Source: Prevotella sp. (lineage in GTDB: Bacteria > Bacteroidota > Bacteroidia > Bacteroidales > Bacteroidaceae). Taken from it: a DNA stretch of 41,544 bases. The position numbers and the translations under genes are program-made. Positions 217-39,502 of the stretch are shown in pieces. The first letter of the stretch is position 1. Each line of letters begins with the position of its first letter. The stretch covers positions 1-41,544 of the forward strand of contig JAFSNG010000029.1 of NCBI GenBank assembly GCA_017447515.1, written 5' to 3'. Below the pieces are notes generated by a model. The model saw only the letters and a program-made list of their open reading frames with translations. It was not told the DNA's origin and ran no database searches.

Positions 217-244
217 AGAGGTGAGAGGTCAGAGGTGAGAGGTA
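217..244. repeat. Heptanucleotide tandem array, 4 units (AGAGGTG type)
   Basis: Four adjacent 7-mers AGAGGTG, AGAGGTC, AGAGGTG and AGAGGTA with no interruption. The array abuts the rhaD terminator hairpin (247-278). The same unit type recurs inside rhaB (4206-4219), at the stop codon of the tandem CE12 gene, and in reverse complement inside the second susD signal sequence (20855-20889). Confidence 0.85.
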
Positions 245-246
245 AG

Positions 247-278
247 AAAAAAGCCGGGACGGGAGTCTCGGCTTTTTT
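247..278. terminator. Bidirectional intrinsic terminator after rhaD
   Basis: AAAAAAGCCG (247-256) pairs perfectly with CGGCTTTTTT (269-278). The stem continues through a G-T wobble and GAC/GTC to a GGGA loop. On the minus strand the hairpin begins about 17 bases after the rhaD stop and is followed by a U-run, so it ends the rhamnose operon. The A-run/T-run symmetry means it could also stop transcription from the other side. Confidence 0.9.
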
Positions 279-294
279 CGTGTATGTGGGAGGG

Positions 295-1116
295 TTAGCA
301 GGGGCGCTTCTTGGGGAGGTTGAAGACGTCCTGCACTTCCTTCATCTGGGCTTCGGTCATGCCGTCGGGCTCAGAACCCATGGCACGGGCACACATGTAG
401 ATGTTGGCGGCCTTGCAGAGCACGTCGGTCTGGTCGAAGGCGTCCATAATGTCGGTGCCTACGGCCACGGTGCCATGCTTCTCCCATAGGACTACGTCGT
501 GGGTCTTGATTTGCTCGAGGGTGGCCTCGGCGAGTGCTACCGACGAGGGTAGGGCATAGGGTACGATGCCGATGCCGAGGGGAGCGAAGGCGAGGGTCTC
601 TGGAATCATCGACCACAGCACGCGGGTCATCTCGTCACCCTTCAGGAAACGCTGGATATGGCTCATGGCCACGAGTTCGATGGGGTGGGTATGCAGCGTG
701 GCCTTGTAGCACGAACCGGTCTCGAGCAGATAGTTCTGCAGAGCGAGGTGGGTGGGCAGCTCAGAGGTTGGCACCACGTTCTCGTCGGCGATGACCACAT
801 ACGAGGCGCAGTCGTCGAGGATGCGGATGATGCTTCCGTTCTGCATGGGTTCCTTGGCGAGGTCGCGCATGCGCTTGCCCGTACCTTTACAATAGAAGTA
901 CTTGCCCTTAAGCTGGGGCAGTACCATGCCAATCTGTTTCACTTCGGAAATGGGGGGCAGGGCACGGCACTCGTCGTCCATGAATTCGGTGACGTTGACG
1001 GTGATGTTGCCGCCATTACGCTCGGCCCAGCCTTTCTGCCAGAGGTAGCCAGTGACCTCGGCAATCTGATAAACTACCGCTTTCAACTGTTCGCGGCCTT
1101 CTAAAATACTTTTCAT
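295..1116 (-). CDS. rhaD: Rhamnulose-1-phosphate aldolase
   Basis: Class II zinc aldolase (273 aa; E. coli RhaD is 274) that splits L-rhamnulose 1-phosphate into dihydroxyacetone phosphate and L-lactaldehyde in the cytoplasm. The metal ligands are the HTH histidines 142 and 144 in LHTHPIEL and H214 in WEKHGTV. E119 in PTSELPTH matches the E. coli catalytic glutamate. I chose the ATG at 1116. A longer frame opens with TTG at 1131, but that codon lies inside a heptamer repeat array and the extra residues (KVEN) are repeat-encoded. The gene is last in the operon, about 30 bases after the permease and before the terminator at 247-278. No lactaldehyde reductase or dehydrogenase gene is present in the window. 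Confidence 0.95.
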   Translation of the reverse strand: MKSILEGREQLKAVVYQIAEVTGYLWQKGWAERNGGNITVNVTEFMDDECRALPPISEVKQIGMVLPQLKGKYFYCKGTGKRMRDLAKEPMQNGSIIRILDDCASYVVIADENVVPTSELPTHLALQNYLLETGSCYKATLHTHPIELVAMSHIQRFLKGDEMTRVLWSMIPETLAFAPLGIGIVPYALPSSVALAEATLEQIKTHDVVLWEKHGTVAVGTDIMDAFDQTDVLCKAANIYMCARAMGSEPDGMTEAQMKEVQDVFNLPKKRPC

Positions 1117-1119
1117 ATT

Positions 1120-1147
1120 TTCAACTTTCAACTATCAACTTTCAACT
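1120..1147. repeat. Heptanucleotide tandem array, 4 units (TTCAACT type), abutting the rhaD start
   Basis: Units on the plus strand are TTCAACT, TTCAACT, ATCAACT and TTCAACT. Read with rhaD they are AGTTGAA/AGTTGAT repeats that end three bases before the ATG. The array fills almost all of the rhaP-rhaD intergenic space, where a ribosome-binding site would be, and reaches the permease stop codon. Confidence 0.85.
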
Positions 1148-2481
1148 TAATAATTCTCTCCGTAACGTTCGCGGGTGATGTCGTCGAGGGCGCGGCCACG
1201 GGTGAGGGGAGCACCGATGAAGCCCACGACGAGCGAGATGCAGAGCAGGGCAATCATGCAGAAGGCTGCAATGGTGAAGCCTTCGCCATTCTCACCGTAG
1301 ATGATGGTGAAGATGAGCCCCCAGACTGCCGACAGGCCACGGACGATGAAGAACATCAAGCCCTGAGCTCCAGCACGGAACTTGGCGGGGACGAGCTCGC
1401 TGCCCCACAGGGCATAGAAAATCTGTGGCGACGAACCGCCCTGGACACCCCAGAGGATGGCAAAGAGCCAGAGGCCCACCATGCCGTTGACACCGATGGT
1501 GACGATGACCAGCCAAGCGGCGATGGCCACGAGGAGACCGAAGGTGTAGATGGCCTTGTGGGACGTCTTGTCGATGAGTTTCGACACGATGAATGTCACG
1601 CCCACGATGATGGCCCATTGGATGCAGTTCATCCAGTTGGCGGTCTCGTTGCTTACACCGCCCGCGGTCTCGTAGATGTGGGGCTGGAAGAAGCCCATGA
1701 CGGATGCTACGAGGTTCCACGTCAGATAGATGGTGGCGAGGAAGATGACGGTACGGATGGCAATCTTGTTGGAGAACAGCACCTTGATATTGTCCAGCAG
1801 GCCAGCCTTCTTGTCGTCAGCCTTCTGGGCGGTAAACTCGGCACTCTCCTGCAACTGGCGCTGCAGGTTCCAGGCGATGAAGGCCACGACGAACAGCGTG
1901 AAGAAGACGATGCGCGACGAGAAGGCATTGACCGCCTCCTGCGACATATCGGCACCGCCAAAGAGGTGTGCCACACTCTCTACCCATCCGAAGAGGTAGC
2001 CGCCAGGGGCAAAGAGCATACCGAACAGGAGGATGCACATGGGTCCGAAGCCCCACGACATCTGTGAGATGCAGATGTTGCGACCGCGGTTGTTGACTTC
2101 GGACGACTCAGAGATATAGGTCCATGAGGCCGGCACGCCCACGCCCACGGAGATGCCCGTGACGAGGAAACCGCAGAGCAGCATGGGGAAATTCATGGAG
2201 AACATGATGAGCAGTACGCCCGTCATGTAGACCAGCAGATTGTAGGTGAAGATGAACTTACGACCGTACTTATCAGCCAGGAAACCGCCGATGATGGCAC
2301 CGATGGCAGCACCGAGGCAGTTGGCTGAGATGAAGTTCAGCCAGCCGAGGTGTACCTCGGAGAGTCCGAGGTAGTTCTGCCACAAGGTCAAGCCCGATGC
2401 TCCAGCCACAATGGCACCGGCATCGAGGTAATTGGTGAGAGACACCGCAATGGTGCTCTTTAAAGATCCAGAATTTGCCAT
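1147..2481 (-). CDS. rhaP: MFS sugar permease, probable L-rhamnose importer
   Basis: Major facilitator superfamily protein of 444 aa with about 12 hydrophobic segments. The loop after the second segment carries the MFS signature GGFLADKYGRKF (roughly residues 65-76). It resembles MFS sugar porters rather than the RhaT family of E. coli. Its place inside an operon of rhamnose kinase, isomerase and aldolase genes supports L-rhamnose uptake across the inner membrane; in Bacteroides thetaiotaomicron an MFS permease (RhaP) has the same context. The ATG at 2481 is 4 bases after the isomerase stop, so the two are probably translationally linked. Substrate specificity is inferred from context only. 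Confidence 0.8.
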   Translation of the reverse strand: MANSGSLKSTIAVSLTNYLDAGAIVAGASGLTLWQNYLGLSEVHLGWLNFISANCLGAAIGAIIGGFLADKYGRKFIFTYNLLVYMTGVLLIMFSMNFPMLLCGFLVTGISVGVGVPASWTYISESSEVNNRGRNICISQMSWGFGPMCILLFGMLFAPGGYLFGWVESVAHLFGGADMSQEAVNAFSSRIVFFTLFVVAFIAWNLQRQLQESAEFTAQKADDKKAGLLDNIKVLFSNKIAIRTVIFLATIYLTWNLVASVMGFFQPHIYETAGGVSNETANWMNCIQWAIIVGVTFIVSKLIDKTSHKAIYTFGLLVAIAAWLVIVTIGVNGMVGLWLFAILWGVQGGSSPQIFYALWGSELVPAKFRAGAQGLMFFIVRGLSAVWGLIFTIIYGENGEGFTIAAFCMIALLCISLVVGFIGAPLTRGRALDDITRERYGENY

Positions 2482-2485
2482 AACC

Positions 2486-3916
2486 TTATCTGCAAACTAC
2501 ATCACACTCAATATTGAAAATCTTGGCAACCTTCAGGATGGTGTCGATATGATGACCGACAGCAGCAGCCATGTGGTGGGTAGGACCAGCCTCGCTCCAC
2601 TTGTTGACGAACTCGCGGCAGCTCAAAGAGAACTTCGTGCGCATGTTGGTATCGCCAAAGGTGAAGATGGGGCCTTCCTCGTTGACACCCTCGGCAGCCA
2701 CGAACTTGAACACGCCGTTCTTATCCTGTGTGATGGCCAGATAGGTGACAGGGCCTACAGGGGGATAGAACTGGGTGAGGTAGCCACCACCAGCCTTGCC
2801 GTGGAAGACAGGCACAATCTTCATTGTGGGCTTCTTGGCCTGCGAGATGTCGAAGTCGCCAGAGCCAGAGTGTCCGATGATGCAGATGTCCTTGGGGAAG
2901 TCGATAGAGTACATCTCGGCCAGCGTGCCTGTGCCTGAGATAGTCTTCAGGATAGACATGGCCATAGCGACCTTCATGTCGCCCTCGACAGCGCAGGCGG
3001 TATGCTGCTTGATGAGCATGGAGAAGGCAGGAATGAGCATGGAGTCGAGCTTGCCGGCAATGCCCTGTGCAAAGCCGTCGTAGTGGGAGGCTATCATGCC
3101 GAGCTTCTCGTCCTTCACCCACTGTTCGAAGGCTACGACATATTTGGCCATATCCCAAACTTTCTCTACTGTACCACCACCCTCGATGTCGAAGGTTGCC
3201 AGGATGTCCTCAGCCTTCGCACGGATGGCAGCCTCGTCGGTGATGTTGTCGGCAATGGCCCACATCTTCTCCCAGTCGAACTGCTTGGTATAGACGAACA
3301 TGCGGTGGTAGAGGTTGGTCTCGTCGATGTAGAGGTCCATCATGCCAGGATAGGGACGGCCAATCTGTGCGATGTTGGTATCGCGGAAGCGGCGACGCAC
3401 CTGGGCAGCACGGCACCAGTCCTCAATCTCTGCCTGACAAGCGGGGTCGCCACCCTCTACAACGCCTGTAATCACTGCCGAGCGCTTGCCGGCACGATTC
3501 AGGTCGGCCACCATCTCGCCAATGGCACCGCAGGCATAGAGCTCGCCCAGCCATGTGGGGATGTCGGTCTTGGCATAGTCGGGAGCCAGCTTCTTCTGCA
3601 GGTTCACGATGACTACGGGCACATCGAGGTCGCGCACAGCAGGCAGCATGTTGTAAGAGGTGCAGTAGGTGAGCATCTGGAGGATGACGAGGTCGACATC
3701 AGCAGCGCGGAACTTGTCGCCTGCAGCCATCGACTGCTCCTTGGTGGTTACCATGCCACCATCGATAATCTCAATCGTGTCGGGCAGCGTCTTCTTGAAT
3801 GCTTCATACTGAGCCTCGAACTCGGGAACGAGTTGTGGGAACTGTGGCAGGTATGCCTGCAGCGCAATGCTGAAGACACCTACCTTTGCTTTGGTTTCTA
3901 CTAATGGTTTTGCCAT
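2486..3916 (-). CDS. FucI/AraA-fold sugar isomerase, probable L-rhamnose isomerase substitute
   Basis: A 476-aa protein of the L-fucose/L-arabinose isomerase superfamily, not of the classical RhaA family (about 420 aa, xylose-isomerase-like barrel). Probable Mn-site residues are E311 (CAVEGD), E334 (LAEMYS), H349 (IIGHSG) and H447/H448 (GPTHHMA). Their spacing matches E306, E333, H350 and H450 of E. coli AraA. The gene sits between rhamnulokinase and permease, 7 bases after the rhaB stop, where an L-rhamnose to L-rhamnulose isomerase is required, and no other isomerase is present. I therefore infer it acts on rhamnose. Alternatives are an L-fucose or L-arabinose isomerase recruited to the operon, with a true rhaA elsewhere in the genome. 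Confidence 0.75.
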   Translation of the reverse strand: MAKPLVETKAKVGVFSIALQAYLPQFPQLVPEFEAQYEAFKKTLPDTIEIIDGGMVTTKEQSMAAGDKFRAADVDLVILQMLTYCTSYNMLPAVRDLDVPVVIVNLQKKLAPDYAKTDIPTWLGELYACGAIGEMVADLNRAGKRSAVITGVVEGGDPACQAEIEDWCRAAQVRRRFRDTNIAQIGRPYPGMMDLYIDETNLYHRMFVYTKQFDWEKMWAIADNITDEAAIRAKAEDILATFDIEGGGTVEKVWDMAKYVVAFEQWVKDEKLGMIASHYDGFAQGIAGKLDSMLIPAFSMLIKQHTACAVEGDMKVAMAMSILKTISGTGTLAEMYSIDFPKDICIIGHSGSGDFDISQAKKPTMKIVPVFHGKAGGGYLTQFYPPVGPVTYLAITQDKNGVFKFVAAEGVNEEGPIFTFGDTNMRTKFSLSCREFVNKWSEAGPTHHMAAAVGHHIDTILKVAKIFNIECDVVCR

Positions 3917-3923
3917 AATGTTA

Positions 3924-5420: not shown

Positions 5421-5453
5421 TCGTTTTGATGTAGTTTGTTTTAATAGAGAGGG

Positions 5454-5483
5454 CAAAGTTACGAAATTTGTTGGATAATCAAA
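5454..5483 (-). promoter_or_regulatory. Bacteroidota promoter for the rhamnose operon
   Basis: On the minus strand TAACTTTG (5461-5454) matches the -7 consensus TAnnTTTG. TTTG (5483-5480), within a T-run, is the -33 element, 18 bases away (consensus 19-21). The -7 box lies about 33 bases upstream of the rhaB ATG. Confidence 0.7.
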
Positions 5484-5506
5484 AAAAATCTTATCATAAT
5501 TTATGC

Positions 5507-5529
5507 AAAATGCACGAAATTCGCATTTT
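5507..5529. promoter_or_regulatory. Inverted repeat between the divergent rhaB and PL26 promoters
   Basis: The arms AAAATG..CGAA and TTCG.CATTTT are complementary apart from a two-base bulge. They lie between the rhaB promoter (5454-5483) and the -7 box of the divergent lyase gene (5536-5543). It is a candidate operator for a rhamnose-responsive regulator; no regulator gene is in the window, so the assignment is speculative. Confidence 0.35.
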
Positions 5530-5535
5530 TTTTCT

Positions 5536-5544
5536 TACTTTTGC
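5536..5544 (+). promoter_or_regulatory. -7 promoter box of the PL26-like lyase gene
   Basis: TACTTTTGC matches TAnnTTTG plus the frequent following C. It lies 31 bases before the ATG at 5575. No clear -33 TTTG is visible at the proper distance, so this promoter may need an activator. Confidence 0.5.
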
Positions 5545-17880: not shown

Positions 17881-17886
17881 TGTTAA

Positions 17887-17914
17887 TTGATAACTGATAA
17901 TTGATAATTGATAA
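17887..17914. repeat. Heptanucleotide tandem array, 4 units (TTGATAA type), abutting the susC2 start
   Basis: Units are TTGATAA, CTGATAA, TTGATAA and TTGATAA. The array ends two bases before the ATG at 17917 and fills nearly all of the susD1-susC2 spacer. The position relative to the start codon is the same as for the arrays before rhaD and the first PL11 gene. Confidence 0.85.
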
Positions 17915-17916
17915 TT

Positions 17917-20813: not shown

Positions 20814-22505
20814 ATGATTACAAAGATAAATAAAAAAGTGGCAACAGGGGTAGTCTCTTTCCTCTTACCTCTTACCTCATGCCTCTTCTTCGCTTGTAGC
20901 AGTCAGATGGATTACAAGGAGTTCAGCGTGTTCGACGAGGCGTATATGCAGAAGAAGTTCGAACGTGCCGGTGGATTCCTGTCTACCATCTATGCCGACC
21001 TCGACTCCGACTTCGGCAACTACAATGGTGCCTGCCTGGCATCAGCTACCGACGAGGCAGTCTATTCGCACGACGGCAACGCCATCGAGAGTTTCTTCAA
21101 CGGTGCCTGGAGTCCTACCAATCCCAACAGCTCTATCTGGACTACCTGCTATCACGGTATTTCCTACTGCAACCTGTTCCTCGACGAGTTCACGGGTCTG
21201 ACGTTTGAGGACTACAAACTCGACAAGAACTTCATGGCAGAGATGTACCAGTATAACAACTATCAGTGGGAAGCACGCTGGGCCCGCGCCTACTTCTACT
21301 TCGAGCTGGTGCGCCAGTATGGCGGTGTGCCCCTGAAGACCACCAATATGTCTCCTGAAGAGGCCAACCGACTGCCACGTGCTACTGCCGACGAGGTATT
21401 CAAGTTCATCGACGACGAGTGTGTGGCCATCAAGGACAGCATCACGAAGGATTATGGCGACCTGGGCGGCTTGGCTATGACGCCCGCCAACAACGGACGT
21501 GCCAACAACCTGGCTGTGCTGGCTCTGCGTGCACGTGCTGCACTCTATCATGCCAGCCCCCTGTTCAATCCTGACAACAACCAGGAACTGTGGCGCCAGG
21601 CTGCTGAGACCAACAAGGCCGTCATTGACGCCTGTGTCGCTCGCGGCATGAAGCTCTCTCCCGACTACAAGGCATTGTTCATTGGTAACACCAGTTGGAG
21701 CGATCCCAATCCTGTGGCTGAAATCATTTTCGGACGCCGTATGCCGACAGAGAACCGCAACTTCGAAACCTACAACTTCCCCGTAGGCATGTCGGGTGCC
21801 GGTGCTGGTGGCGGTGGTGGCAACTGCCCCTCGCAGAACCTCGTCGAGGCTTACGAGGACGGTGACAAGCGCTTTGCGGTATCTGTTGCCTGCAATGGCG
21901 ACTCATGGCCCAATGCCAATACCCAGCCCCTGGAGACCTTCGTCGGTGGCGTCAACGGACTCCCCACGACCTACGGAACACCTACGGGCTACTATCTGAA
22001 GAAGTATGTCAACGAGACCGTGCAGATTGCCGGTAGTGGTGCCAACACCTGCAAGCACGTGTGGGTCACCTTCCGCCTGGCTGAGTTCTACCTGAACTAT
22101 GCCGAGGCCATGCTCAACCTCTCGGGCAGTGGCTACCAGTCTGTTCCCGGTTTCGCAATGACCGCAGAGTCTGCCATCAATACCGTCCGTAAGCGTGCTG
22201 GTTTGGCCGGTATCGCCAAGGACCTCAGTGCCGCCGACTTCAAGGCTCAGTACGAAAAGGAGCGCTTCGTCGAGCTGGCCTTCGAGGGTCACCGCTTCTT
22301 CGACGTGCGCCGCTGGAAGGAAGCCGACAAGTATTTCAAGACCATCTATGGAGTGGAAATCATCAACAATGGCGACGGCACGTTCACCGAGACCAAGAAG
22401 GTCGTTCAGAACCGCCAGTGGGAGGATAAGATGTATCTCTTCCCCATTCCGCAGAGCGATATTCTGAAGTCTGGTGGTGCTCTGGATCAGAATCCCGGCT
22501 GGTAA
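20814..22505 (+). CDS. susD: SusD/RagB-type surface glycan-binding lipoprotein (second)
   Basis: 563 aa. Ends DILKSGGALDQNPGW, the standard SusD finish, and has the helical segment ARAYFYFELVRQYGGVPL and FVELAFEGHRFFDVRRW. The signal peptide is odd: residues about 15-26 are encoded by five CTCTTAC-type heptamers (20855-20889). This produces two candidate lipoboxes, PLTSC (C23, repeat-encoded) and FFAC (C28). Either cysteine would give a surface lipoprotein. The gene lies 41 bases after susC2 and is last in the Sus operon; a hairpin at 22515-22547 follows. A glycine-rich loop (GAGAGGGGG, about 324-332) is also present. Confidence 0.95.
   Translation: MITKINKKVATGVVSFLLPLTSCLFFACSSQMDYKEFSVFDEAYMQKKFERAGGFLSTIYADLDSDFGNYNGACLASATDEAVYSHDGNAIESFFNGAWSPTNPNSSIWTTCYHGISYCNLFLDEFTGLTFEDYKLDKNFMAEMYQYNNYQWEARWARAYFYFELVRQYGGVPLKTTNMSPEEANRLPRATADEVFKFIDDECVAIKDSITKDYGDLGGLAMTPANNGRANNLAVLALRARAALYHASPLFNPDNNQELWRQAAETNKAVIDACVARGMKLSPDYKALFIGNTSWSDPNPVAEIIFGRRMPTENRNFETYNFPVGMSGAGAGGGGGNCPSQNLVEAYEDGDKRFAVSVACNGDSWPNANTQPLETFVGGVNGLPTTYGTPTGYYLKKYVNETVQIAGSGANTCKHVWVTFRLAEFYLNYAEAMLNLSGSGYQSVPGFAMTAESAINTVRKRAGLAGIAKDLSAADFKAQYEKERFVELAFEGHRFFDVRRWKEADKYFKTIYGVEIINNGDGTFTETKKVVQNRQWEDKMYLFPIPQSDILKSGGALDQNPGW
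20855..20889. repeat. Heptanucleotide array, 5 units (CTCTTAC type), inside the susD2 signal sequence
   Basis: Units are CTCTTTC, CTCTTAC, CTCTTAC, CTCATGC and CTCTTCT. In reverse complement they belong to the AGAGGTA family at 217-244 and 4206-4219. They encode the hydrophobic core and first lipobox of the lipoprotein signal. A gain or loss of one unit would shift the frame and abolish the protein. Confidence 0.8.
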
Positions 22506-24931: not shown

Positions 24932-24954
24932 ACCTAAGGCACTACGCCAACACC

Positions 24955-25042
24955 TTCCCTGCTGTCCGCCACTCTGCTCCCTGCTGTCGGCTTGACACTT
25001 CCCTGCTGTCGACCAGAGATCAGGGAGCAGAGCGCCGGACAG
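24955..25042. repeat. Three 22-bp-spaced direct repeats plus an inverted copy
   Basis: YTCCCTGCTGTC occurs at 24955, 24977 and 24999, exactly 22 bases apart. A fourth, inverted partner at 25021-25042 (begins CAGGGAGCAGAG) is complementary to 24963-24984 with about three mismatches. The stretch could fold into a long hairpin and has no ORF of its own. I do not recognise the element. Confidence 0.75.
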
Positions 25043-25088
25043 CCCGTAAGGTGATAGGACGAACACCGTGCGAGGCTTTTGTTCCCTC

Positions 25089-25147
25089 AATAAGTGCCAC
25101 TTATTTCTGAATAAGAGCCACTTATTTTCCGAGAAGTGGCACTTATT
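25089..25147. repeat. Three near-palindromic AATAAGTGCCACTTATT repeats
   Basis: AATAAGTGCCACTTATT (25089-25105), AATAAGAGCCACTTATT (25110-25126; 21-base period) and an inverted partial copy AAGTGGCACTTATT (25134-25147). Each full copy is nearly self-complementary. Together with the repeats at 24955-25042 they make up most of the 24932-25147 intergenic sequence. The third copy overlaps the stop codon of the gene remnant at 25146. Confidence 0.8.
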
Positions 25148-25449: not shown

Positions 25450-25986
25450 ATGAAAAAGATATTATTTTTACTGACTTTGGTATGCTGTTTGGGCTGTTCG
25501 GAGTCAACGACGGACATGGACGAAAGTGACGCCCAGCAGGTGTTTAACTCCATCAAAGGGACGTATGTCGGCAATATCCTGGTTGACAACGTTCCCCAGA
25601 AGGTTTACCTGATAGTTGACGATAATTTCACGATGAAGTATCTGCCGGTGAGGCCTATCCTGGAACGTATCTTTACGGGTGCAGCACTGGACGAGGCGGA
25701 GCAATCGGCAGGCAGCGTGGCGTTTACGGCCACCCTCGACCTGATGACCGTTGCCGGTAGCAACAGCCATCTGCACATGAAGCCGACGGACTTGGTATTC
25801 ACGGTGACGGTGGACGGCAAGAGCTATAAGGTGGATGCGCTGATGGAAGGTATGTTATATGCGAATACGACCTACGACGAGTTGTCGATGAGCATGGACG
25901 TGACGGAGCTGAATTGTGACGGTGTGAAATACGATATGGTGAACAATGGCGTGAACTATTTCGTGGACAACGCCAAGAAGGAATAA
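25450..25986 (+). CDS. Small DUF4840-like lipoprotein
   Basis: 178 aa starting at ATG 25450, with the signal MKKILFLLTLVCCLGCSES; C16 in CLGC is the likely lipidated cysteine. The mature part is a beta-rich domain with the opening IKGTYVGNILVDNVPQKV and MKYLPVRPILERIF. This resembles the DUF4840 family of Bacteroidales lipoproteins (recall, not aligned), whose function is unknown. It is first in the operon, directly after a consensus promoter, and 36 bases before the first PL11 gene, so it is probably exported with the lyases to the outer membrane. A role in glycan binding or lyase anchoring is speculation. Confidence 0.7.
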   Translation: MKKILFLLTLVCCLGCSESTTDMDESDAQQVFNSIKGTYVGNILVDNVPQKVYLIVDDNFTMKYLPVRPILERIFTGAALDEAEQSAGSVAFTATLDLMTVAGSNSHLHMKPTDLVFTVTVDGKSYKVDALMEGMLYANTTYDELSMSMDVTELNCDGVKYDMVNNGVNYFVDNAKKE

Positions 25987-26020
25987 TTCATAATTAAGCA
26001 ATTCATAATTCACAATTTAT
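25985..26020. repeat. Heptanucleotide array (AATTCAY type) abutting the first PL11 start
   Basis: AATTCAT, AATTAAG, one extra C, AATTCAT, AATTCAC, AATTTAT; ends two bases before the ATG at 26023. The same unit occurs inside this gene's 3' end (30003-30030) and in the next PL11 gene (32226-32253). Confidence 0.75.
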
Positions 26021-26022
26021 AT

Positions 26023-29000
26023 ATGAAGAGATTGTTTTTGCTGGCTATCCTGATGATAGCAACGCTGAGCGTCGGAGCACAGCGCAAGACGGACGTGTTG
26101 GACCAAGGACTGGTAGCCATCAAGACCACTGAGGGCGTGTACTGCTCGTGGCGCATACTGGCTGAGGAGTATTACGACGTGACGTACAACCTGTATCGCG
26201 ACGGCGTGAAGATTGCCGAAGGACTGAGCGTGTCGAACTATACCGACGCGGCAGGCGCGGATGGCAGCAAATACACGGTGAAGGCCGTGGTGCGCGGTGC
26301 CGAACAGGAAGCCAGCAAGGAGGTGACGCCCTGGGCGCAGAAGTATCTGGAGATTACGCCCGACCACGGTGCGCTGACGTCGACGTATGTACCTAACGAC
26401 GCGTGTTGTGCCGATGTGGACGGTGACGGTGAGCTGGAAATCCTGTTGAAGTTCGACAACCTGAGCGAGATACAGGCCAGCTATCCGAAGGAAGGATACA
26501 ACGGCGAATATTCCATCGTCGAGGTGTACAAGCTGAACGGCAAGAAGCTGTGGTGGCTGGACTTCGGACCGAATATGGGCGACTTCCAGAACAACGAGCA
26601 GAATATTGTGGCTTATGACTGGGATGAAGACGGCAAGGCCGAAGCGGTGATACGCGCTGCAGACGGTACGACGATACACCTGGCAGACGGTACGACGCAG
26701 GTCATTGGTGACGCCACGAAGAACTACCGCAGCGCCACGGGCGGCGGTACGAACTGGTTTATGCACGAGGGTGCAGAATACCTGGTATATATGAACGGCG
26801 AGACTGGCAAGCCCTATCAAGTAATGGAATATCCGCTGAAACGACTGGAGGACGGCGAGACCGACCTGAACGCAGCGTGGGGCGACGGCTACGGCCACCG
26901 CTCGACGAAGCATTTCTTCGGAGCTCCCGTGCTGGACGGTCGTAAAGCCAGCATCTTCCTGGCTCGCGGCATCTATACGCGCCACAAGATGATAGCGCTG
27001 GACGTGAATCCCGCGACCCACGAACTGACGGTACGTTGGCGCTGGAATAACAATACGCCCGGCTCGCCGTGGTATGGGCAGGGCTACCATAACTATAGCG
27101 TGGCCGACGTCGACTGGGACGGCCGTGACGAGATATGTTTCGGTTCGATGGTCATCGACGACAACGGCCACGGACTGTCGACGACGGGCTTGGGTCACGG
27201 TGATGCACATCACGTCGGCGACTTCAATCCCTACATACACGGACAGGAGCTTTTTGCCTGCAACGAAGACCGTCCGGGCAACAACTACCGTGACGCCACG
27301 ACGTCGAAGATATACTACCGCTATGAGGCTGGCGACGATGACGGACGCGCCATGATGGGCAACTTCACCGACGACTTCCCCGGCAGTCAGGGCATTTCGA
27401 GCCGCGACCCGAACCTGATCAGTTCGGTCATCAACGGTCCGCTGCCTGTAGCGAAACCGAGCGACGTGACGCAGAACTTCCGCATCTATTGGGACGGCGA
27501 CCTGTGTGACGAGACGCAGGACTATTCGAGCGGCAAGAATACGGCCATTGCCATCTATAAATATGGTAAGGGCAAGATAGAGACACTGACGGGTTCATTG
27601 ACCAACAACGACACGAAGGGAACGCCCTGCTATCAGGGTGACCTGTTCGGCGACTGGCGCGAGGAGATTATTGCCCGCACGGCGGACAACAAGATTCGCA
27701 TCTATACCACCACGATGCCCACCGAGTGGCGTATTCCCACACTGTGGCACGACCACCAGTATCGTCAGGCGATGGTGTGGCAGATGTGCGGCTACAACCA
27801 GCCGCCCCACGTAAGCTATTTCCTCGGCGAAGTGGAGGGCATCACCCAGGCTCCCCCCGCACTAACCATGACGGGACGCAAGGAGATAGCTAATGGTGGC
27901 AACTTTACAACGACTGATAACGCTGTCATCACTTGCGAGCCCAACGACATGACTGTCAGTGTCAGCGACGGTGCATCACCCTATATCTTCTTTGACAATA
28001 CCCCCTCATGGGTGCAGGGTCACGACAGTAACGACAACATCGATTATACCTACTACACCCACACCCTGACGGGCGGTGCCTTTGCCGGTGATATGCGGTT
28101 GGTGAAGCAGGGCGACGGAATCCTCGTTCTGCCCAACGTGGTGGAAAAATACACGGGTCGGACGGAAGTCTGGGGCGGTACGCTGCGCTTCAACGGCACG
28201 CTGGAGAACAGTTCCCTGTGGCTGAACCGCCACACCGCACTGGAGTCGGACGGCGGACAGTTCAAAGGTGGCATCACGGCAGACTATAACGCCACGATAG
28301 CCATTGGTACAACGGAGAAGGCGGGCAACGTTACGGTGTCCGACCTGACGCTGGGTTTTGGCTCGCGTGTGGTGTTCGACGTGTTTGCAGACAGTACGAC
28401 AGACCAGCTGAAAGTCACGAAGCTGCATATCGGGAAGAAGGACTGGCAGAACGGCCCGCAGTATGACGCTCCTGTTATCCAGATCGTAACGCACAATGCT
28501 GATGGCACGACGACGCTGGCAGCAGGCAGCTACGAACTCATGACGGTCGGCGAGGTGGAAGGCGACGTCAGCGACATCATCATAGAAGGTATTGCCGGAC
28601 AGAAATATTCGCTGACCAACGACGGCGGTAAGCTGTCGCTGAATGTCGCTGCCTTGCGCGACCCTGCCGATGTGGTTTGGGACGGCGGAACGGACGGCAT
28701 CTGGGATTTGGCTAATGCCGAGAACTTCGTGTTGGATGGCAATAAGGACTTCTTCGTGTCGGGCGACAACGTGACGTTCAACGATGCCGCTACGAATACG
28801 GCGATAAATATTGTTGGCGAGGTGAAGCCTGCCAGCGTGACGTTTGACAACAGTGAGAAGAACTTCACCGTCGACGGTGAAGGCAGCATCATTGGCGACG
28901 GTTCGCTGACGAAGAAAGGGTCGGGTAGTGTCACCATCAACAACGTGAACAAATATACAGGCGGAACGACCATCGAGGATGGTAAGCTCATCGTCGGTTC

Positions 29001-30132
29001 GCTGGCCAATAGCGACGGTGCGGAATTCGGTGCGTTGGGCGGTGTGGACAATACCATTACGCTGAACGGCGGTACGCTGGCCGTGAGCCAGACGATGGTG
29101 ACCTCTCAACCTGTGAGTATTGGTGACGGCAACGGTATGGTGGAAGTGGCCGCAGGTAAACAACTGACGTTGAATGCCGCTATCAGTGGCTCGAAAAAGG
29201 AATTGACCAAGGCGGGCAATGGTACGCTGGTTGCGAACGGTGCACCAAGCTATGGTACGCTTGTTGTGAACGCGGGTGTCGTGCAGGGCGGTGAACGGAA
29301 TGCTGTTCACGCATATCCAAGCAAGGTTGTGTTGAACGGTGGCGCGCTGAAGGACCCCAACGACATCTACAGCTATTCGACTAACAATGCCAATGTCGAG
29401 GTGCCTGAAGGCAGTACGGCCACGTGGACGCTGGATTCGCGTTGTGACTATAAGGGCAAGCTGACGGGCTCAGGACAACTGACGGTCAACGTGACCAGCG
29501 TGCGTTGTAACATGCAGGGCGACTGGAGTCAGTTTGAGGGAATCCTGAAGTTCCAGAACACGAAGACAGGCTCGTACGAACCCTCGTTGCAATGGAACAA
29601 TTCTTATGGTTTGGGCAAGGCCACCGTCATTGGTAACTTCTTTAACGACGGCAAGGACGTCACAATAGGCACGCTGACGGATAAGTCGTTCATTAGCGGA
29701 GGAGGCAAGACGACCGTGAAACATATCGCCTTGGACATCAGGAAGATAAAGGGTACCATCACCAATTCCTATTTCGAGGTGGAGCATCTGATGGTCATCA
29801 GCGGCCCCATCGACATCACGCTGAATGGAACACTGAAGGCAGGCGACCGCATCACGTTGTGGAAGGTGGGTGCGCTACAGGACAACGGTGCGGTCGTCAA
29901 TCTGCCCGAACTGCCTGAGGGCCTCTATTGGGATACCACCAATCTGCTGAAGGCCGAGGGTGTGCTGAAGGTGACGAATGAGCCCGTGACGGGAATCGTT
30001 CCAATTCATAATTCACAATTCACAATTGACAATGAGGCTGGCTGGTTCACGCTCGATGGTCGCAAACTCCAGGGCAAGCCGACGCAGAAAGGCGTGTACA
30101 TCATGAATGGTAAACAGGTAGTGATTAAGTAA
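26023..30132 (+). CDS. PL11 rhamnogalacturonan lyase fused to autotransporter-type beta repeats
   Basis: 1369 aa, more than twice a normal PL11 (about 600-700). Signal peptide MKRLFLLAILMIATLSVGA. Residues about 24-615 form the PL11 beta-propeller with calcium-type loops: CADVDGDGELEI, YDWDEDGKAEAV, VADVDWDGRDEICFGS, DLFGDWREEI, and HDHQYRQAMVWQ. PL11 enzymes cut the Rha-GalA bond of RG-I by beta-elimination. Residues about 690-1090 carry at least three segments like the autotransporter-associated beta-strand repeat (LTKKGSGSVTINNVNKYTGG then TTIEDGKLIVG), which form right-handed beta helices. No translocator barrel is present. A repeat-encoded linker (IHNSQFTIDN) leads to the tail WFTLDGRKL...KGVYIMNGKQVVIK. 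The fusion may place the lyase on a stalk. Confidence 0.9.
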   Translation: MKRLFLLAILMIATLSVGAQRKTDVLDQGLVAIKTTEGVYCSWRILAEEYYDVTYNLYRDGVKIAEGLSVSNYTDAAGADGSKYTVKAVVRGAEQEASKEVTPWAQKYLEITPDHGALTSTYVPNDACCADVDGDGELEILLKFDNLSEIQASYPKEGYNGEYSIVEVYKLNGKKLWWLDFGPNMGDFQNNEQNIVAYDWDEDGKAEAVIRAADGTTIHLADGTTQVIGDATKNYRSATGGGTNWFMHEGAEYLVYMNGETGKPYQVMEYPLKRLEDGETDLNAAWGDGYGHRSTKHFFGAPVLDGRKASIFLARGIYTRHKMIALDVNPATHELTVRWRWNNNTPGSPWYGQGYHNYSVADVDWDGRDEICFGSMVIDDNGHGLSTTGLGHGDAHHVGDFNPYIHGQELFACNEDRPGNNYRDATTSKIYYRYEAGDDDGRAMMGNFTDDFPGSQGISSRDPNLISSVINGPLPVAKPSDVTQNFRIYWDGDLCDETQDYSSGKNTAIAIYKYGKGKIETLTGSLTNNDTKGTPCYQGDLFGDWREEIIARTADNKIRIYTTTMPTEWRIPTLWHDHQYRQAMVWQMCGYNQPPHVSYFLGEVEGITQAPPALTMTGRKEIANGGNFTTTDNAVITCEPNDMTVSVSDGASPYIFFDNTPSWVQGHDSNDNIDYTYYTHTLTGGAFAGDMRLVKQGDGILVLPNVVEKYTGRTEVWGGTLRFNGTLENSSLWLNRHTALESDGGQFKGGITADYNATIAIGTTEKAGNVTVSDLTLGFGSRVVFDVFADSTTDQLKVTKLHIGKKDWQNGPQYDAPVIQIVTHNADGTTTLAAGSYELMTVGEVEGDVSDIIIEGIAGQKYSLTNDGGKLSLNVAALRDPADVVWDGGTDGIWDLANAENFVLDGNKDFFVSGDNVTFNDAATNTAINIVGEVKPASVTFDNSEKNFTVDGEGSIIGDGSLTKKGSGSVTINNVNKYTGGTTIEDGKLIVGSLANSDGAEFGALGGVDNTITLNGGTLAVSQTMVTSQPVSIGDGNGMVEVAAGKQLTLNAAISGSKKELTKAGNGTLVANGAPSYGTLVVNAGVVQGGERNAVHAYPSKVVLNGGALKDPNDIYSYSTNNANVEVPEGSTATWTLDSRCDYKGKLTGSGQLTVNVTSVRCNMQGDWSQFEGILKFQNTKTGSYEPSLQWNNSYGLGKATVIGNFFNDGKDVTIGTLTDKSFISGGGKTTVKHIALDIRKIKGTITNSYFEVEHLMVISGPIDITLNGTLKAGDRITLWKVGALQDNGAVVNLPELPEGLYWDTTNLLKAEGVLKVTNEPVTGIVPIHNSQFTIDNEAGWFTLDGRKLQGKPTQKGVYIMNGKQVVIK
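30003..30030. repeat. Heptanucleotide array, 4 units (AATTCAC type), in the first PL11 gene
   Basis: Units are AATTCAT, AATTCAC, AATTCAC and AATTGAC. They encode the linker between the beta-helix region and the short C-terminal tail. An almost identical array sits at the matching place in the next gene (32226-32253), although the domains before it differ. Confidence 0.85.
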
Positions 30133-30210: not shown

Positions 30211-32358
30211 ATGAAACGACTCTTAACTATTTTGCTGTGCGCCCTGACGCTGACGGGCTATGCACAGACACCCGGCGACACACCCGAGAGCCAGATGGAG
30301 AAGCTGGACCGCGGACTGGTGGTCGTCAGGTATCCTCAGGGAAAAGGCTTTAAGTATTTTGCCAGCTGGCGAATGCTGGGAACGGACGACACAAACACGA
30401 CATTCGCGCTGCTGAAGAACGGTGAGACGCTGAAGGACGGCATCAGTGGTGCGACGTCAGTCGATAGCATTACGGCCACTGCCGACGACAGGTTCCAGGT
30501 GGTGACCTACCAGAACGGAACGGCTGTAGAAACGTCTGCTGAGGTGGCGCCCTGGACGAACTATTACCTGAAGCTGCCTTTGGACAAGCCTGCCGCAGGC
30601 GCTTTGGGCGGAACGTATTCGCCCAACGATTGCTCAGTAGGCGATGTGGATGGTGACGGACAGTACGAAATCATCGTCAAATGGGATCCGTCGAACTCAA
30701 AGGACAATTCGCAGAGCGACAAGACGGACAACGTCTTCCTGGACTGCTATAAGCTCGACGGTACGAAGCTATGGCGCATCGACCTCGGCGTAAATATCCG
30801 TGCTGGTGCGCATTATACGCAGTTTATGGTGTACGACTTCGACAAGGACGGTCGTGCGGAGCTGATGTGTAAGACGGCTCCAGGTTCCATCGACGGACAA
30901 GGCAACTACGTAAACCAGGCGGCGACGGACGACAACATCAAGGCTGCCGATAACACGAAGGACTGGCGCACGGCGGCCGGTCGCATCAATGGCGGACAAG
31001 AATATCTGACGGTGTTCAACGGCGAGACGGGAGCGGCCATCCATACCATTGCGTACTATCCGAACCGCAATGCCAAGGCGGAGCTGAGCGAGGCTGCGGG
31101 AACCTTCAACTGGGACGACCGCAGCGGCAAAAACGACAAAGGCGACTACGGCAATCGTGGTGAGCGCTATCTGGCCTGCGTGGCTTATCTGGCAGGACCC
31201 GACCAGCGTCCCAGCGGCGTGTTCTGTCGTGGATACTACACCTTCGCTTATCTGTGGGCGGTCGACTTCGACGGCAGTCAGCTGAAGACACGCTGGCTGC
31301 ACAGTTCGGACAAGATGGATTCCTACCGGCTGATGGACGCCGACGGCAACGAACAGCGGTTGGAGGGCATGGCGAGCACGTCGGGTCATACTACGCGAAA
31401 GACGATGTATGCCAACGGCAACCACAACCTCTCGGTGGCTGACGTCGACGGTGACGGTTGCGACGAGATCATCTGGGGTTCGGCGGCACTCGACAACGAC
31501 GGACGGTTGCTGTACTGCGTCGGTTTCGGTCATGGTGACGCCATCCATTTAGGCGACCTGAATCCCGACCGCCCGGGACTGGAACTGTTTGACGTACACG
31601 AAGAGAAGGGCGAATATGCGTGGGATATGCACGACGCTGCCACGGGTGAAATCATCTGGAAGGGCGGACAGAAAGGGCAGGACAATGGTCGCGGACTGGC
31701 TGCCGACATCGTGGAATCCACGCGTGGCTATGAGTTCTGGTCGTCGTATGGCGGTTTCGACAGCAACAGCCGAAACCAGAATCCCTACAATGCCATTTCG
31801 GGTACGCAGGCTGCCAGCACGAAACCTTCCATGAACTTCCGCATCTATTGGGACGGTGACGCGCTGGACGAGCTGTTGGATAATACCACCATCTCGAAAT
31901 ATGGCGGTTCCAACTTGGGTGTTGGTTCCTCGAATATTACGGGACAATCGAACAATGGTACGAAGGCGACGCCGAACCTCTCCGCCGACATCTTCGGTGA
32001 CTGGCGTGAGGAGCTCATTCTTAGGAGTTCCAGCAATGATGCGCTGAACATCTTCACCACCATTACACCCACCGACTACCGTGTGCCGACGCTGATGCAC
32101 GACCACACCTATCGCTTGGCCGTTGCCTGGCAGAATGTGGCGTATAACCAACCACCCCATCTGGGTTACTACCTGCCGGACTTCATCGATTCGTTCCAGG
32201 GCAGTGGCTCGACGGGAGTCGTTCCAATTCATAAGTCACAATTCACAATTCATCATTCGGTTGACGTGTGGTACACGCTCGATGGACGCAAACTCGCAGA
32301 CGCTCCGACGAAGAAGGGCGTTTATATCCAAAACGGAAAGAAACTCATCATCAAGTAA
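30211..32358 (+). CDS. PL11 rhamnogalacturonan lyase
   Basis: 715 aa with signal peptide MKRLLTILLCALTLTGYA. The PL11 propeller covers about 30-675: SVGDVDGDGQYEIIVKW, YDFDKDGRAELMCKTAPGS, VADVDGDGCDEIIWGSA, ADIFGDWREELILR and HDHTYRLAVAWQN. It lacks the beta-helix extension of its neighbour and ends with a repeat-encoded linker (IHKSQFTIHH) and the tail YTLDGRKL...KGVYIQNGKKLIIK. With the upstream enzyme it gives two PL11 activities, probably cleaving different RG-I regions or chain lengths. The next gene starts 3 bases after its stop, so they are co-transcribed. Confidence 0.93.
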   Translation: MKRLLTILLCALTLTGYAQTPGDTPESQMEKLDRGLVVVRYPQGKGFKYFASWRMLGTDDTNTTFALLKNGETLKDGISGATSVDSITATADDRFQVVTYQNGTAVETSAEVAPWTNYYLKLPLDKPAAGALGGTYSPNDCSVGDVDGDGQYEIIVKWDPSNSKDNSQSDKTDNVFLDCYKLDGTKLWRIDLGVNIRAGAHYTQFMVYDFDKDGRAELMCKTAPGSIDGQGNYVNQAATDDNIKAADNTKDWRTAAGRINGGQEYLTVFNGETGAAIHTIAYYPNRNAKAELSEAAGTFNWDDRSGKNDKGDYGNRGERYLACVAYLAGPDQRPSGVFCRGYYTFAYLWAVDFDGSQLKTRWLHSSDKMDSYRLMDADGNEQRLEGMASTSGHTTRKTMYANGNHNLSVADVDGDGCDEIIWGSAALDNDGRLLYCVGFGHGDAIHLGDLNPDRPGLELFDVHEEKGEYAWDMHDAATGEIIWKGGQKGQDNGRGLAADIVESTRGYEFWSSYGGFDSNSRNQNPYNAISGTQAASTKPSMNFRIYWDGDALDELLDNTTISKYGGSNLGVGSSNITGQSNNGTKATPNLSADIFGDWREELILRSSSNDALNIFTTITPTDYRVPTLMHDHTYRLAVAWQNVAYNQPPHLGYYLPDFIDSFQGSGSTGVVPIHKSQFTIHHSVDVWYTLDGRKLADAPTKKGVYIQNGKKLIIK
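32226..32253. repeat. Heptanucleotide array, 4 units (AATTCAC type), in the second PL11 gene
   Basis: Units are AATTCAT, AAGTCAC, AATTCAC and AATTCAT. They encode IHKSQFTIHH between the PL11 domain and the C-terminal tail, in the same reading frame as the array in the preceding gene. Confidence 0.85.
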
Positions 32359-32361
32359 AAT

Positions 32362-36693: not shown

Positions 36694-36697
36694 TGCT

Positions 36698-39502
36698 TTA
36701 TTTGATTTTGGGTTTGAGTTCGTCGGGCGACTCGTTGGTGAACATGTTCACTGCGGGAGCCTCACGTTCGAAGAGGTGACGGATGACATCCACCGAGACA
36801 GTCGTCGTGGGCTGGAAATCGTCACTCGCCATATAGCGGAGGATGGAGTAGCGCAACTGCCGGGCAACGGGGGATGGATGATGTGTGATGGCTGATGGCT
36901 GAGGGGTGATGGCTGATGGATGATGTGTGATGGCTGAGGGCTGAGGGCTGACGGGAAGGGTAGTCATCAGCAGGCGGCCATTGAGCACGCGGGCCTCGAG
37001 GAGCATGCCGAGTTTGCGCGAGACGTGCCATGTGTCGATGGGTTGCACGATGGGCTGGAAGTCCTTGGGGAATTCCGCGAGGTTCATCACCTGTGTGCGA
37101 TTGACGAGTTCCCACCAGTTCAGGTTCTGCCAGTCGTCCGTGGGGAAATCGCGGAAGACGGGATGCGTGTTCTGGATGTAGGCCCCCGTGGTATGTGGCG
37201 GGCGCATCTTAAACCACGATGTGTTCCAGAAGACAGGCAGGAACGTGTGGCGTACGTCGTTGCCGTAACGGATCTTGCCGCCAGCCGTGAGCAGCACGTC
37301 GCCACCTTGTTTTAATACCTGCAGGGCCTTGGCGTCGAGGGTATCCGTCTCGTAGATGGCTGATGGCTGATGTATGATGTCTGAGGGCTGAGGTCTGAGG
37401 TCTGAGGGCTGGGGGTAGACCCAGAAGTCCCAGTGGTTTTTGACGACCTGGGAGAGTTGTACCGTCAGCGTCAGTTTGGCTGGTGCCTGAATGTTGCCCA
37501 GCGACAGCGCGACGGTACCCAGGGGAATGTTCTTGCCTACAGGCAACGGCCCTGAGAATAGTGTGCCGTCGCTGATGATCTGATTTGAATCGTTGCTGAT
37601 GACATAGGTGGCGGTGACATCCGAAAAGGGAGTGCTGTAGGCATTGTATGCCTCGACATCGACGGAGAGCTGCTCGTCGTTGGTATAGACAAATTTGGGG
37701 AACTTGGCCAAAGGCACGACGATGTTGCAGAACTGCCGCCAGTCGTCTGCCGTGCAATAGCCTTTCTCGCGCCAATGCACATTCAGCGGACCCACGAGGG
37801 CGGTACCCTGTCCGCTATAGTCGTTGATGCCGAGATACTGGAAACCGGCATAGTCCTTCGTGCGCAGGTTGCGCTCGGTCTCATACTTGTAGCAGAGGGT
37901 CTGCAAACGTCCGCTCGCCATCAGGAATTTTTCTGCCATTTCGGCCATTCCGTTGTCGGCCAACAGGTCGCGGAATATCTCGAAGTTCTTGGCCTTATAG
38001 GCTCCATGGTACTGCGAAATCTCCTTGAAGTCGGGGAAGGCACACCACTGTCCCTGCTCATGAGCCACGATGGGCGAATGGTTGGGTTCCGTACTTTTAT
38101 AATTGCGCGGAAACAGCAACTGCTGATAATAGTCGTCGTCACTGTGTGGTGCGTGTTTGTCCCAATCCAAACCACGTGCTCCGGCCTTCACGTGATATTC
38201 GGAACCGTCGTCCCATGCCCAGCCGCCGCCGACACTAGCTCCGGCATAGATCTTCGTGGGGTCATACTGCTTCATCGCCTTCACCCAGTCGTTGCAGTAC
38301 GTCACCCAGTCGCCGGCGGGTTCATTGCCCGCCGCCATCATGCAGAACGAAGGATGGTGACCGTATTCGTCGATGATGCGTTTCGTCTCCTCCATCAGAT
38401 ACTTGTCGATTTTCTGTCCGTTACGCAGCTTCACGCCATGATTGGGCCACGAGGGACCCTCGGGCTGCAGGTAGATGCCCACACGGTCGGCAGCAGCAAA
38501 GGCGGCCTCGGGCGGACAATAGCTGTGGAAACGCACGTGGTTGAGGCCATACGCCTTGCATTTGGCGAAAACCTCCAGCCATTCTTCCTCGTCAGTAGGC
38601 GGATAGCCGGTCTCCGGGAAGCAGCAGTTCTCCACGGTGCCGCGCAGGTAGAGCGGTCGTCCATTGATGAGCAGTTGGCTGCCCTCCACGCGGATGTCAC
38701 GCAGTCCGAAAGTTACATCCACCGGCATTCCCTCGTAATAGACGGTATGCTGGTAGAGTTGGGGGTGGAACTCGTCCCACTGTATCGCTTCCTGCTTCAA
38801 CGGCACAAAGTAGGAGGTTTCGTTGACGATAATCTCCACGAAATTGGCTTCCAGATGGGGAATGACCCGTTTGCGCCAGATGACGGGCCCCACCTGCAGC
38901 TCGATGCGCCCTACGATACCGTTCCAGTTGCCCTGCGTCTGATCGGTCACGCTATGCGAATCCTGTCCCACACAGACGTTCTCAATGCCGTTGTACACGC
39001 AGATGGCGATGGTGTTGCGCGTGCCGAAACGCAGATACCTGCTGATGTCGTAGCGGTGGGGAACCGACAGCGACATCTGGTGGCCCACCTCCTTGCCGTT
39101 AACGTAGACGGTGGTCTCGATGTGCGGCCGCTCCAGGAACAACGTCACTTGCTCGCCCTTCATCGACTGGGGGATGTAGACGGTGCGCTTGTACCACGCC
39201 TTGCCCGTGTAATGGCGCTCGGGGGTCAGGAAGAACGGGAATTTCATCTCTCCCTCGTGGCGATACTTCTCCATGTAGGGATTGAAATAGAAACTGGAGT
39301 CGTACAACGAACCCGTCCACTGCGTCTTCGTGGTCACGATGTCGCCCTTGCCGTTGGTAAGCATCGAGCCCGGCAGTATCACGTAGTCATTGTATGCCGT
39401 CGAGTCGCCCAACGACAGGTCCCATGCTCCTGCCAGCGATAGTGTCTCCTGCGCCCCGCAAAGCAAGGGCAAGAAGGCCAGAAACCAAATAATCCGTTTC
39501 AT
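36698..39502 (-). CDS. GH2 glycoside hydrolase with repeat-encoded linkers
   Basis: 934 aa, signal peptide MKRIIWFLAFLPLLCGAQE. N-terminal jelly-roll (about 25-205: AWYKRTVYIPQSMKGEQVTL), Ig-like domain, TIM barrel with acid/base E394 in AAGNEPAGDW and nucleophile E482 in IVAHEQGQWC. The C-terminal part (about 690-934) contains two proline-rich heptapeptide stretches encoded by heptanucleotide arrays: about 696-716 (PQPSDLR-type) and about 850-877 (PQPSAIT/HHPSAIT). Each keeps the frame because the unit numbers are 9 and 12. The gene is 27 bases after rhaM. Likely removes beta-linked galactose or uronate from RG-I; exact substrate unknown. Its leader peptide is nearly the same as that of the CE12 enzyme two genes upstream. 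Confidence 0.85.
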   Translation of the reverse strand: MKRIIWFLAFLPLLCGAQETLSLAGAWDLSLGDSTAYNDYVILPGSMLTNGKGDIVTTKTQWTGSLYDSSFYFNPYMEKYRHEGEMKFPFFLTPERHYTGKAWYKRTVYIPQSMKGEQVTLFLERPHIETTVYVNGKEVGHQMSLSVPHRYDISRYLRFGTRNTIAICVYNGIENVCVGQDSHSVTDQTQGNWNGIVGRIELQVGPVIWRKRVIPHLEANFVEIIVNETSYFVPLKQEAIQWDEFHPQLYQHTVYYEGMPVDVTFGLRDIRVEGSQLLINGRPLYLRGTVENCCFPETGYPPTDEEEWLEVFAKCKAYGLNHVRFHSYCPPEAAFAAADRVGIYLQPEGPSWPNHGVKLRNGQKIDKYLMEETKRIIDEYGHHPSFCMMAAGNEPAGDWVTYCNDWVKAMKQYDPTKIYAGASVGGGWAWDDGSEYHVKAGARGLDWDKHAPHSDDDYYQQLLFPRNYKSTEPNHSPIVAHEQGQWCAFPDFKEISQYHGAYKAKNFEIFRDLLADNGMAEMAEKFLMASGRLQTLCYKYETERNLRTKDYAGFQYLGINDYSGQGTALVGPLNVHWREKGYCTADDWRQFCNIVVPLAKFPKFVYTNDEQLSVDVEAYNAYSTPFSDVTATYVISNDSNQIISDGTLFSGPLPVGKNIPLGTVALSLGNIQAPAKLTLTVQLSQVVKNHWDFWVYPQPSDLRPQPSDIIHQPSAIYETDTLDAKALQVLKQGGDVLLTAGGKIRYGNDVRHTFLPVFWNTSWFKMRPPHTTGAYIQNTHPVFRDFPTDDWQNLNWWELVNRTQVMNLAEFPKDFQPIVQPIDTWHVSRKLGMLLEARVLNGRLLMTTLPVSPQPSAITHHPSAITPQPSAITHHPSPVARQLRYSILRYMASDDFQPTTTVSVDVIRHLFEREAPAVNMFTNESPDELKPKIK
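36872..36955. repeat. Heptanucleotide array, 12 units (TGATGGC type), in the GH2 gene
   Basis: 84 bases made of 12 uninterrupted 7-mers: mostly TGATGGC, with TGAGGGC, TGATGTG and TGATGGA variants. On the coding strand it encodes four heptapeptides of the type PQPSAIT/HHPSAIT (28 codons). Being a multiple of 21 bases it leaves the frame intact. Confidence 0.9.
37354..37416. repeat. Heptanucleotide array, 9 units (TGATGGC/TGAGGTC type), in the same GH2 gene
   Basis: 63 bases of nine 7-mers, from AGATGGC through TGATGGC, TGATGTA, TGATGTC, TGAGGGC and TGAGGTC to TGGGGGT. It encodes three Pro/Ser heptapeptides (YPQPSDL, RPQPSDI, IHQPSAI). Same unit family as the 12-unit array 400 bases away. Confidence 0.9.

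Follow-up and report, generated by a model that had tools for sequence, protein, structure and literature searches.

Tandem heptanucleotide arrays with a TGA/TAA core in a Prevotella genome and its relatives

A 41,544-nucleotide contig of Prevotella sp. (JAFSNG010000029.1 of assembly GCA_017447515.1; hereafter the window, meaning the whole of this stretch) carries a number of tandem arrays with 7-bp units of different sequence, and arrays of the same type occur in further stretches of that genome. The observation of heptamer arrays was confirmed in both the window and its genome. We consider it slightly better than an even bet (probability of about 0.52) that these arrays constitute one dispersing and fast-drifting family of heptanucleotide tandem repeats, of a known kind and with a core specific to the lineage. 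The window contains SusD-family and TonB-plug genes, which we take to indicate a Bacteroidota host.

Arrays were called by a period score (+1/−2) with a cut-off of 12 or more, and periods 4–24 were scanned in the window. Seven arrays were obtained at period 7 and none at periods 4–6, 8–13, and 15–20. At periods 14 and 21 the period-7 arrays recurred as multiples, and one to two further repeats each were found at 21, 22, and 24. Markov controls of the window yielded no array at any period tested. A further sample of the same genome, comprising 20 stretches and 326,848 bp, contained 36 arrays at period 7, followed by period 8 with 9 and period 9 with 6, each remaining period between 4 and 13 having 0–2; a Markov-3 control of this sample held no period-7 array. 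The total for the own genome (368 kb) amounts to 43 period-7 arrays, whereas periods 8 and 9 have 9 and 6, respectively, and periods 5, 6, and 10–13 have 0–2. The comparison of period 7 with its neighbours, which an earlier reading of the window (the sequence-only reading) had proposed as a check, therefore revealed an excess in both the window and the genome sample. A similarly sharp preference was observed elsewhere: in G465, a genome of the same class and another family that was selected for its high TGA count, 17 stretches held 48 arrays at period 7, while period 6 gave 2 and period 8 gave 1 (G, C, and L numbers are our labels for genomes, contigs, and loci). Loci fetched for carrying a TGACAGT array gave 314 arrays at period 7 versus 5 at period 6 and 16 at period 8, a count that is biased by this choice. 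We know of no ordinary slippage model in which 7 beats 6 and 8 as sharply as in G465.

The sequence-only reading had listed nine 7-bp arrays in the window. All of the sequences were found at the places given, and seven reached the cut-off, with calls at 217–247, 1119–1148, 17884–17916, 20855–20885, 30003–30033, 36879–36951, and 37355–37415. The array at 32226–32252 is good but short; it has 93% identity to its own consensus and stays below the cut-off. A minus-strand stretch of AATTCAT/AATTCAC-like sequence between two open reading frames (ORFs) at 25985–26021 is degenerate and has no clean period 7: its identity to the period-7 consensus is 65%, and a tandem-repeat finder prefers period 15. 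The traces of two units each (4206 and 10546) are present as sequences and are too short to have any meaning alone. Phasing on TGA, which had been described for nearly all arrays, was found in the consensus of seven of the nine (either strand), while the array at 20855 and the degenerate stretch at 25985 carry TAA instead.

The enrichment of this core was assessed on distinct units, with expectations derived from 7-mers of intergenic sequence; TRA denotes TGA or TAA. In the own genome, the 27 distinct units include 18 with TGA (5.8 expected; none of 2000 draws was as high) and 25 with TRA (13.0 expected). When 19 sampled genomes were pooled, giving 97 distinct genome-units, TGA was present in 60 (22.9 expected, z 8.5) and TRA in 88 (48.7 expected), and TGA was the sole strongly enriched trinucleotide class, the runner-up reaching z 2.5. 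The pooled TGA counts lean upward because most of the added genomes were picked for many TGA-pattern matches, whereas the own-genome counts are free of this bias. Eight loci (L034, L050–L053, and L094–L096) had been picked from or beside TGA-pattern hits; they are included in the pooled figures below for core alignment, mismatch, orientation, gene context, stop-free units, pair sharing, and networks. Without them, TGA occurs in 52 of 88 units (20.5 expected). Alignment of the units without a preset core resulted in TYANYYN, the reverse complement of which is NRRNTRA, at 4.71 bits per unit (background 3.56 ± 0.12), and at 5.55 bits per unit in the own genome (background 4.19 ± 0.26). Background 7-mers folded better than the units did (p 0.005 and 0.02), and with regard to purine/pyrimidine asymmetry the units were the same as the background. 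In G465, TRA lay on the plus strand in 20 arrays, on the minus strand in 18, and was undecided in 10; GC skew was too weak to be of use for assigning these to replication strands.

The TGA phase thus held beyond chance in the own genome, as had been claimed, and the genus overall leans likewise. Among the 30 genomes of the genus with any match (own included), 1766 matches to the TGA pattern were obtained versus 1026 to an AGT control, with TGA ahead in 21 and behind in 8, and some congeneric species have no TGA-pattern match. The AGT control is imperfect because units such as TGAGAGT contain both TGA and AGT. Across the phylum (296 genomes), the corresponding numbers were 6621 and 6521, with TGA exceeding the control in 94 genomes and falling short of it in 118; this tally comprises 227 rows, all-zero rows being mostly omitted, and its 181 rows with a match together with the own genome make 182. 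A search for TGACAGT returned at least 120 stretches, of which the 80 listed were analysed. Arrays within one mismatch of TGACAGT were removed before TGA was counted, which reduced 314 arrays to 180. Among the cyanobacterial loci, which were fetched for an array, period 7 was dominant and TRA occurred in 37 of 61 units versus 31.4 expected. The TGA core is therefore not general to the phylum or to the cyanobacterial loci; we read it as lineage-specific. As a separate observation, one genome with 55 matches to the TGA pattern has 36 of them in a single region of about 83 kb (G010:C3:1599724–1682832).

Although the units had been described as unrelated, this description did not survive comparison with random units. 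Linked by single-base steps, 21 of the 27 own-genome units fall into one cluster, with 31 edges versus 17.4 ± 4.1 in TRA-matched random sets (none of 200 sets as high); for the genus the cluster takes in 62 of 66 units, with 116 edges versus 88.8 ± 9.5 (p 0.005). Since they are linked in one network, distinct units are not independent. After units within one mismatch had been merged, the TGA excess was gone (4 own-genome clusters, p 0.215; 5 genus clusters, p 0.71), a comparison of low power, and TGA or TAA remained at p 0.039 in the merged genus clusters. A canonical unit was common to 341 of 2656 array pairs within genomes versus 131 of 12,999 between genomes, which is partly due to the dominant unit of G009. 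The array at 217–247 (plus strand; AGAGGTG/C/A units, TGAGAGG phase) has a variant-bearing exact copy of 31 bp in contig C13 (G000:C13:7741–7771) with unrelated flanks. Matches to an AGAGGTR array were found in 46 of 200 genus genomes at 1 to 25 each, and the own genome has 18 with overlapping ones included, while the reversed control gave isolated matches only, in 7 of 200. No match was obtained when the region of the 217 array was compared to plasmids. An intrinsic-terminator-like hairpin with a T run (246–279) begins at the last bases of this array.

For such a dispersing family we propose that arrays would lengthen and shorten by slippage in 7-nt steps and that short pieces of an array would now and then be copied elsewhere, possibly by template switching or ectopic repair via repeats. 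After copying, each genome would drift toward its own dominant units, and the common TGA/TAA core (TYANYYN/NRRNTRA) would then mainly reflect shared descent. Translation would select the surviving sites, namely antisense positions within genes (loops, linkers, and signal peptides) and sense positions in tight stop-to-start gaps. Several results weigh against this proposal. In G009 alone, connectivity of the units was not above that of TRA-matched random sets (p 0.135). The 31-bp match was noticed post hoc, and the copying of arrays between loci was deduced rather than watched. Arrays at orthologous sites, described below, lack common units, which is also compatible with repeated independent birth. 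Finally, in 87 pooled TGA arrays the mismatch was 0.034, 0.050, and 0.015 at the three TGA positions compared to 0.104–0.142 in the spacer (rank z 5.6; coding arrays alone z 1.65, own genome z 0.27), which counts against neutral or shared descent as the sole cause, as descent alone does not predict it. A dispersing family gives no account of the step size of 7 or of the lower variability of TRA positions in relatives.

The low variability of the TGA positions in the pooled sample would be expected if one TRA every 7 nt were a selected binding or regulatory signal, recognized by an RNA- or DNA-binding protein, or provided stops in all frames at gene ends. The gene context of the arrays bears on this explanation. 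Gene calls were based on a longest-ORF choice and placed 41 of the 180 sampled arrays within predicted genes. Among these 41, TRA was antisense in 31, sense in 1, and neither in 9. In contrast, tight co-directional gaps displayed sense TRA in 20 cases versus antisense in 4 (p 0.0015), and sense TRA was also above the tight-gap background (18 of 22 versus 10.8), both in favour of a selected signal. Loose gaps were balanced (sense 21, antisense 24). The TRA excess was present in every gene context of the pooled sampled genomes, including convergent, divergent, and loose gaps, and among stop-free sense units of coding arrays antisense TRA occurred in 23 of 30 versus 5.6 expected. Selection for a stop codon in every frame as the sole cause of TRA was rejected in view of the antisense TRA in genes and the enrichment outside tight gaps. 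TRA that is antisense in genes, sense in tight gaps, and enriched everywhere indicates that translation filters orientation and is not the source of the core. The same ubiquity speaks against a selected function, as do orthologous sites with no array or with other arrays and the lack of a phylum-wide TGA preference. That other periods enrich different trinucleotides would fit selected signals; even so, we regard a selected function as rather improbable.

The sites themselves turn over between species. Arrays inside coding sequence, as claimed by the sequence-only reading, were borne out for the GH2, rhamnogalacturonan-lyase-family, and SusD-family genes of the window. The GH2 gene (36698–39502, minus strand) carries two arrays in antisense, a TGATGGC array in its first loop (36873–36951, plus strand) and a TGAGGGC/TGATGGC array in its second, variable loop (37355–37415, plus strand). 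Of 30 aligned loci, 28 have a short first loop, and G033 has a CTCACCT array there; the second loop varies throughout, with a CTCAAAT array in G105 and a CTAAACT array in G074. When unit numbers were compared between G023 and G124 (L077 and L076), the 4.9-kb GH2 locus was 100% identical apart from a run of N; the two genomes are separate species entries despite this identity. Within the next SusD-family gene after the SusD–SusC gap described below, a CTCTTAC array (20855–20887, minus strand, TAAGAGG phase) encodes the hydrophobic part of an apparent lipoprotein signal peptide, as judged by eye. The corresponding site has a similar pyrimidine-rich stretch in G160 and is ordinary in the other 17 loci compared. 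AATTCAC arrays on the minus strand occupy the linker preceding the C-terminal module of the rhamnogalacturonan-lyase-family gene at 26023–30132 (array 30003–30033) and the matching linker of the neighbouring paralogue at 30211–32358 (array 32226–32252), and this linker varies among aligned relatives. Outside genes, a TTTCAAC array (1119–1148, minus strand, TGAAAGT phase) extends to the stop codon of an MFS transporter gene (1147–2481, minus strand), and a TGATAAT array (17884–17916, plus strand) lies between the stop of a SusD-family gene and the start of the following TonB-plug (SusC-like) gene. By eye, this SusD–SusC gap carries roughly five kinds of array with 7- or 8-nt units in 20 species: TGATAAT in the own genome, TAGNAAT in G160, TTAAGAG in G544 and G503, TTAAGAA in G141, and 8-mers in G540, G018, G106, G105, and G123, with no clear array in 10 of the 20.

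Different arrays at one orthologous gap are what would be expected if each array were born from local sequence by independent slippage, with an intrinsic preference for 7-nt steps and for unstructured TRA-containing units. The sharp period-7 preference in other lineages, the poor folding of the units, and the TRA enrichment even in stop-free coding units point in the same direction, and a polymerase contact length has been suggested for heptamer preference (Mrazek et al. 2007, as cited in the passages of PMC4679880 available to us). However, local birth does not lead one to expect a single network of units, with more similarity inside a genome than across genomes, or an array with private variants that is common to two loci with unrelated flanks. 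We therefore hold independent slippage to be a possible explanation, though clearly a less probable one than a dispersing family.

Another arrangement was suggested by periods other than 7. The top trinucleotide classes were GAG at period 8 (z 3.4), TAG at period 9 (z 2.3), and GGA at period 10 (z 4.1), and by eye the arrays of periods 8–10 include GGAGTTAA-like, CTAG-bearing, and GGA-bearing families. Core and period might accordingly be coupled in a code (TRA per 7 nt, GGAGT per 8 nt, CTAG per 9 nt, and a GGA-type core per 10 nt), with a factor that would recognize the core and copy or extend the arrays. Such sequence-specific propagation is unlikely in our estimation, if marginally less so than a selected function; if true, the core-recognizing factor would also act inside genes and rewrite loops, linkers, and signal peptides at the species level. 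Period-9 arrays with a CTAG core and five variable bases were observed in L010 (6495), L013 (11962), L034 (9136, 11635, and 15204), and L100 (9363).

Candidate factors were sought in 25 genomes. A telomerase-like reverse transcriptase that adds repeats from a template would explain why dominant units are genome-specific, as they would resemble a genome-specific template, and the reverse transcriptase domain RVT_1 was detected in 11 of the 25, among the array-rich ones in G006, G009, G010, and G034. However, RVT_1 was not found in the array-rich genomes G007, G008, G019, G028, and G035, nor in the own genome, which is incomplete, and four genomes in which the TGA pattern has no match (G003, G016, G017, and G024) do contain it. 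Several distinct units also stand side by side in one genome. An origin by reverse transcriptase was rejected, as the presence of RVT_1 does not follow array abundance in the 25 genomes, and a telomerase-like activity appears highly improbable. MutS domain I was matched in every genome, whether rich or poor in arrays, except the array-rich G009 (24 of 25). Exonuclease VII matched in all 25 and was below the family threshold only in G465, which has the highest TGA count in the phylum tally. Neither protein was correlated with the arrays, because the exceptions are single genomes.

Dispersed heptamers are known from other bacteria, and our searches of open-access papers listed none that deals with TGA-phased heptamers in Prevotella. 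The likeness to cyanobacterial heptamer repeats noted by the sequence-only reading was supported by an identical TGACAGT array that occurs, among the loci listed, in Cyanobacteria, Bacteroidota, a Firmicutes metagenome-assembled genome, Desulfobacterales, and Nitrospirae; five TGACAGT units are identical in Calothrix, Microcoleus, Tychonema, and Bacteroidota. Both the arrays and the cyanobacterial short tandemly repeated repetitive sequences (STRR) consist of degenerate 7-nt tandem units that are dispersed and multi-copy. They differ in that the STRR host belongs to the Cyanobacteria, unlike the present host; in addition, TGA is not in excess among the cyanobacterial units of the fetched loci, and of the 180 arrays sampled here 41 are located in predicted genes. 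Three Calothrix heptanucleotides are mentioned in the available passages of PMC4692102. TAACTGA direct repeats have been described, in the parts of the source at hand, from Beggiatoaceae, Cyanobacteria, and five Bacteroidetes (MacGregor 2015, PMC4679880); they are mostly intergenic, often directly before start codons, and in the Bacteroidetes examples close relatives have no repeats at the same place. These are likewise heptamer direct repeats, but according to the same passages they consist of one unit, single-base variants of which seldom occur as repeats in the main genome, in contrast to the cloud of units observed here, and TAACTGA (canonical AACTGAT) was absent among the own-genome units. 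As summarized in passages of PMC4679880 and PMC4692102, Mrazek et al. 2007 found heptanucleotide long simple sequence repeats to be the commonest class in most prokaryotic genomes, the cause being unknown; the richest genomes named there belong to other phyla, and these passages contain no mention of core sharing or dispersal. The GGGNATC quadruplex repeats of Xanthomonas and Nostoc, in the part of PMC4692102 concerned, are dispersed heptamers that occur at different genes in two related species. They share dispersal and site differences between related species with our arrays and differ by a G-tract per unit: GGG/CCC occurs in 1 of 62 distinct units here versus 5.7 expected, GAGGGCT being the single such unit of the own genome.

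Two old puzzles of heptamer arrays are why the unit is 7 and how arrays spread. With 43 arrays in 368 kb, congeners free of matches, filled and empty orthologous sites, and rewritten signal peptides and loops, both become testable by comparison of close strains. Apparent signal peptides and linkers in array-bearing genomes may be derived from repeats.

Inverted repeats were encountered as well. Heptamer arrays in L021, L022, and L026 also make the arms of inverted repeats, and large palindromic elements of G006 (L025, 227–513; L115, 6010–6323) contain 12-mer arrays in their arms, with 8-mer arrays in L025 as well. An Rfam scan of the window gave no match at gathering scores. The window itself contains a palindromic intergenic element at 24951–25147 with inverted arms of 47 nt and 27 nt and internal repeats of 21/22 bp, of which a diverged copy (83%) is located at G000:C3:23888–24084 and a partial copy (89%) in G098.

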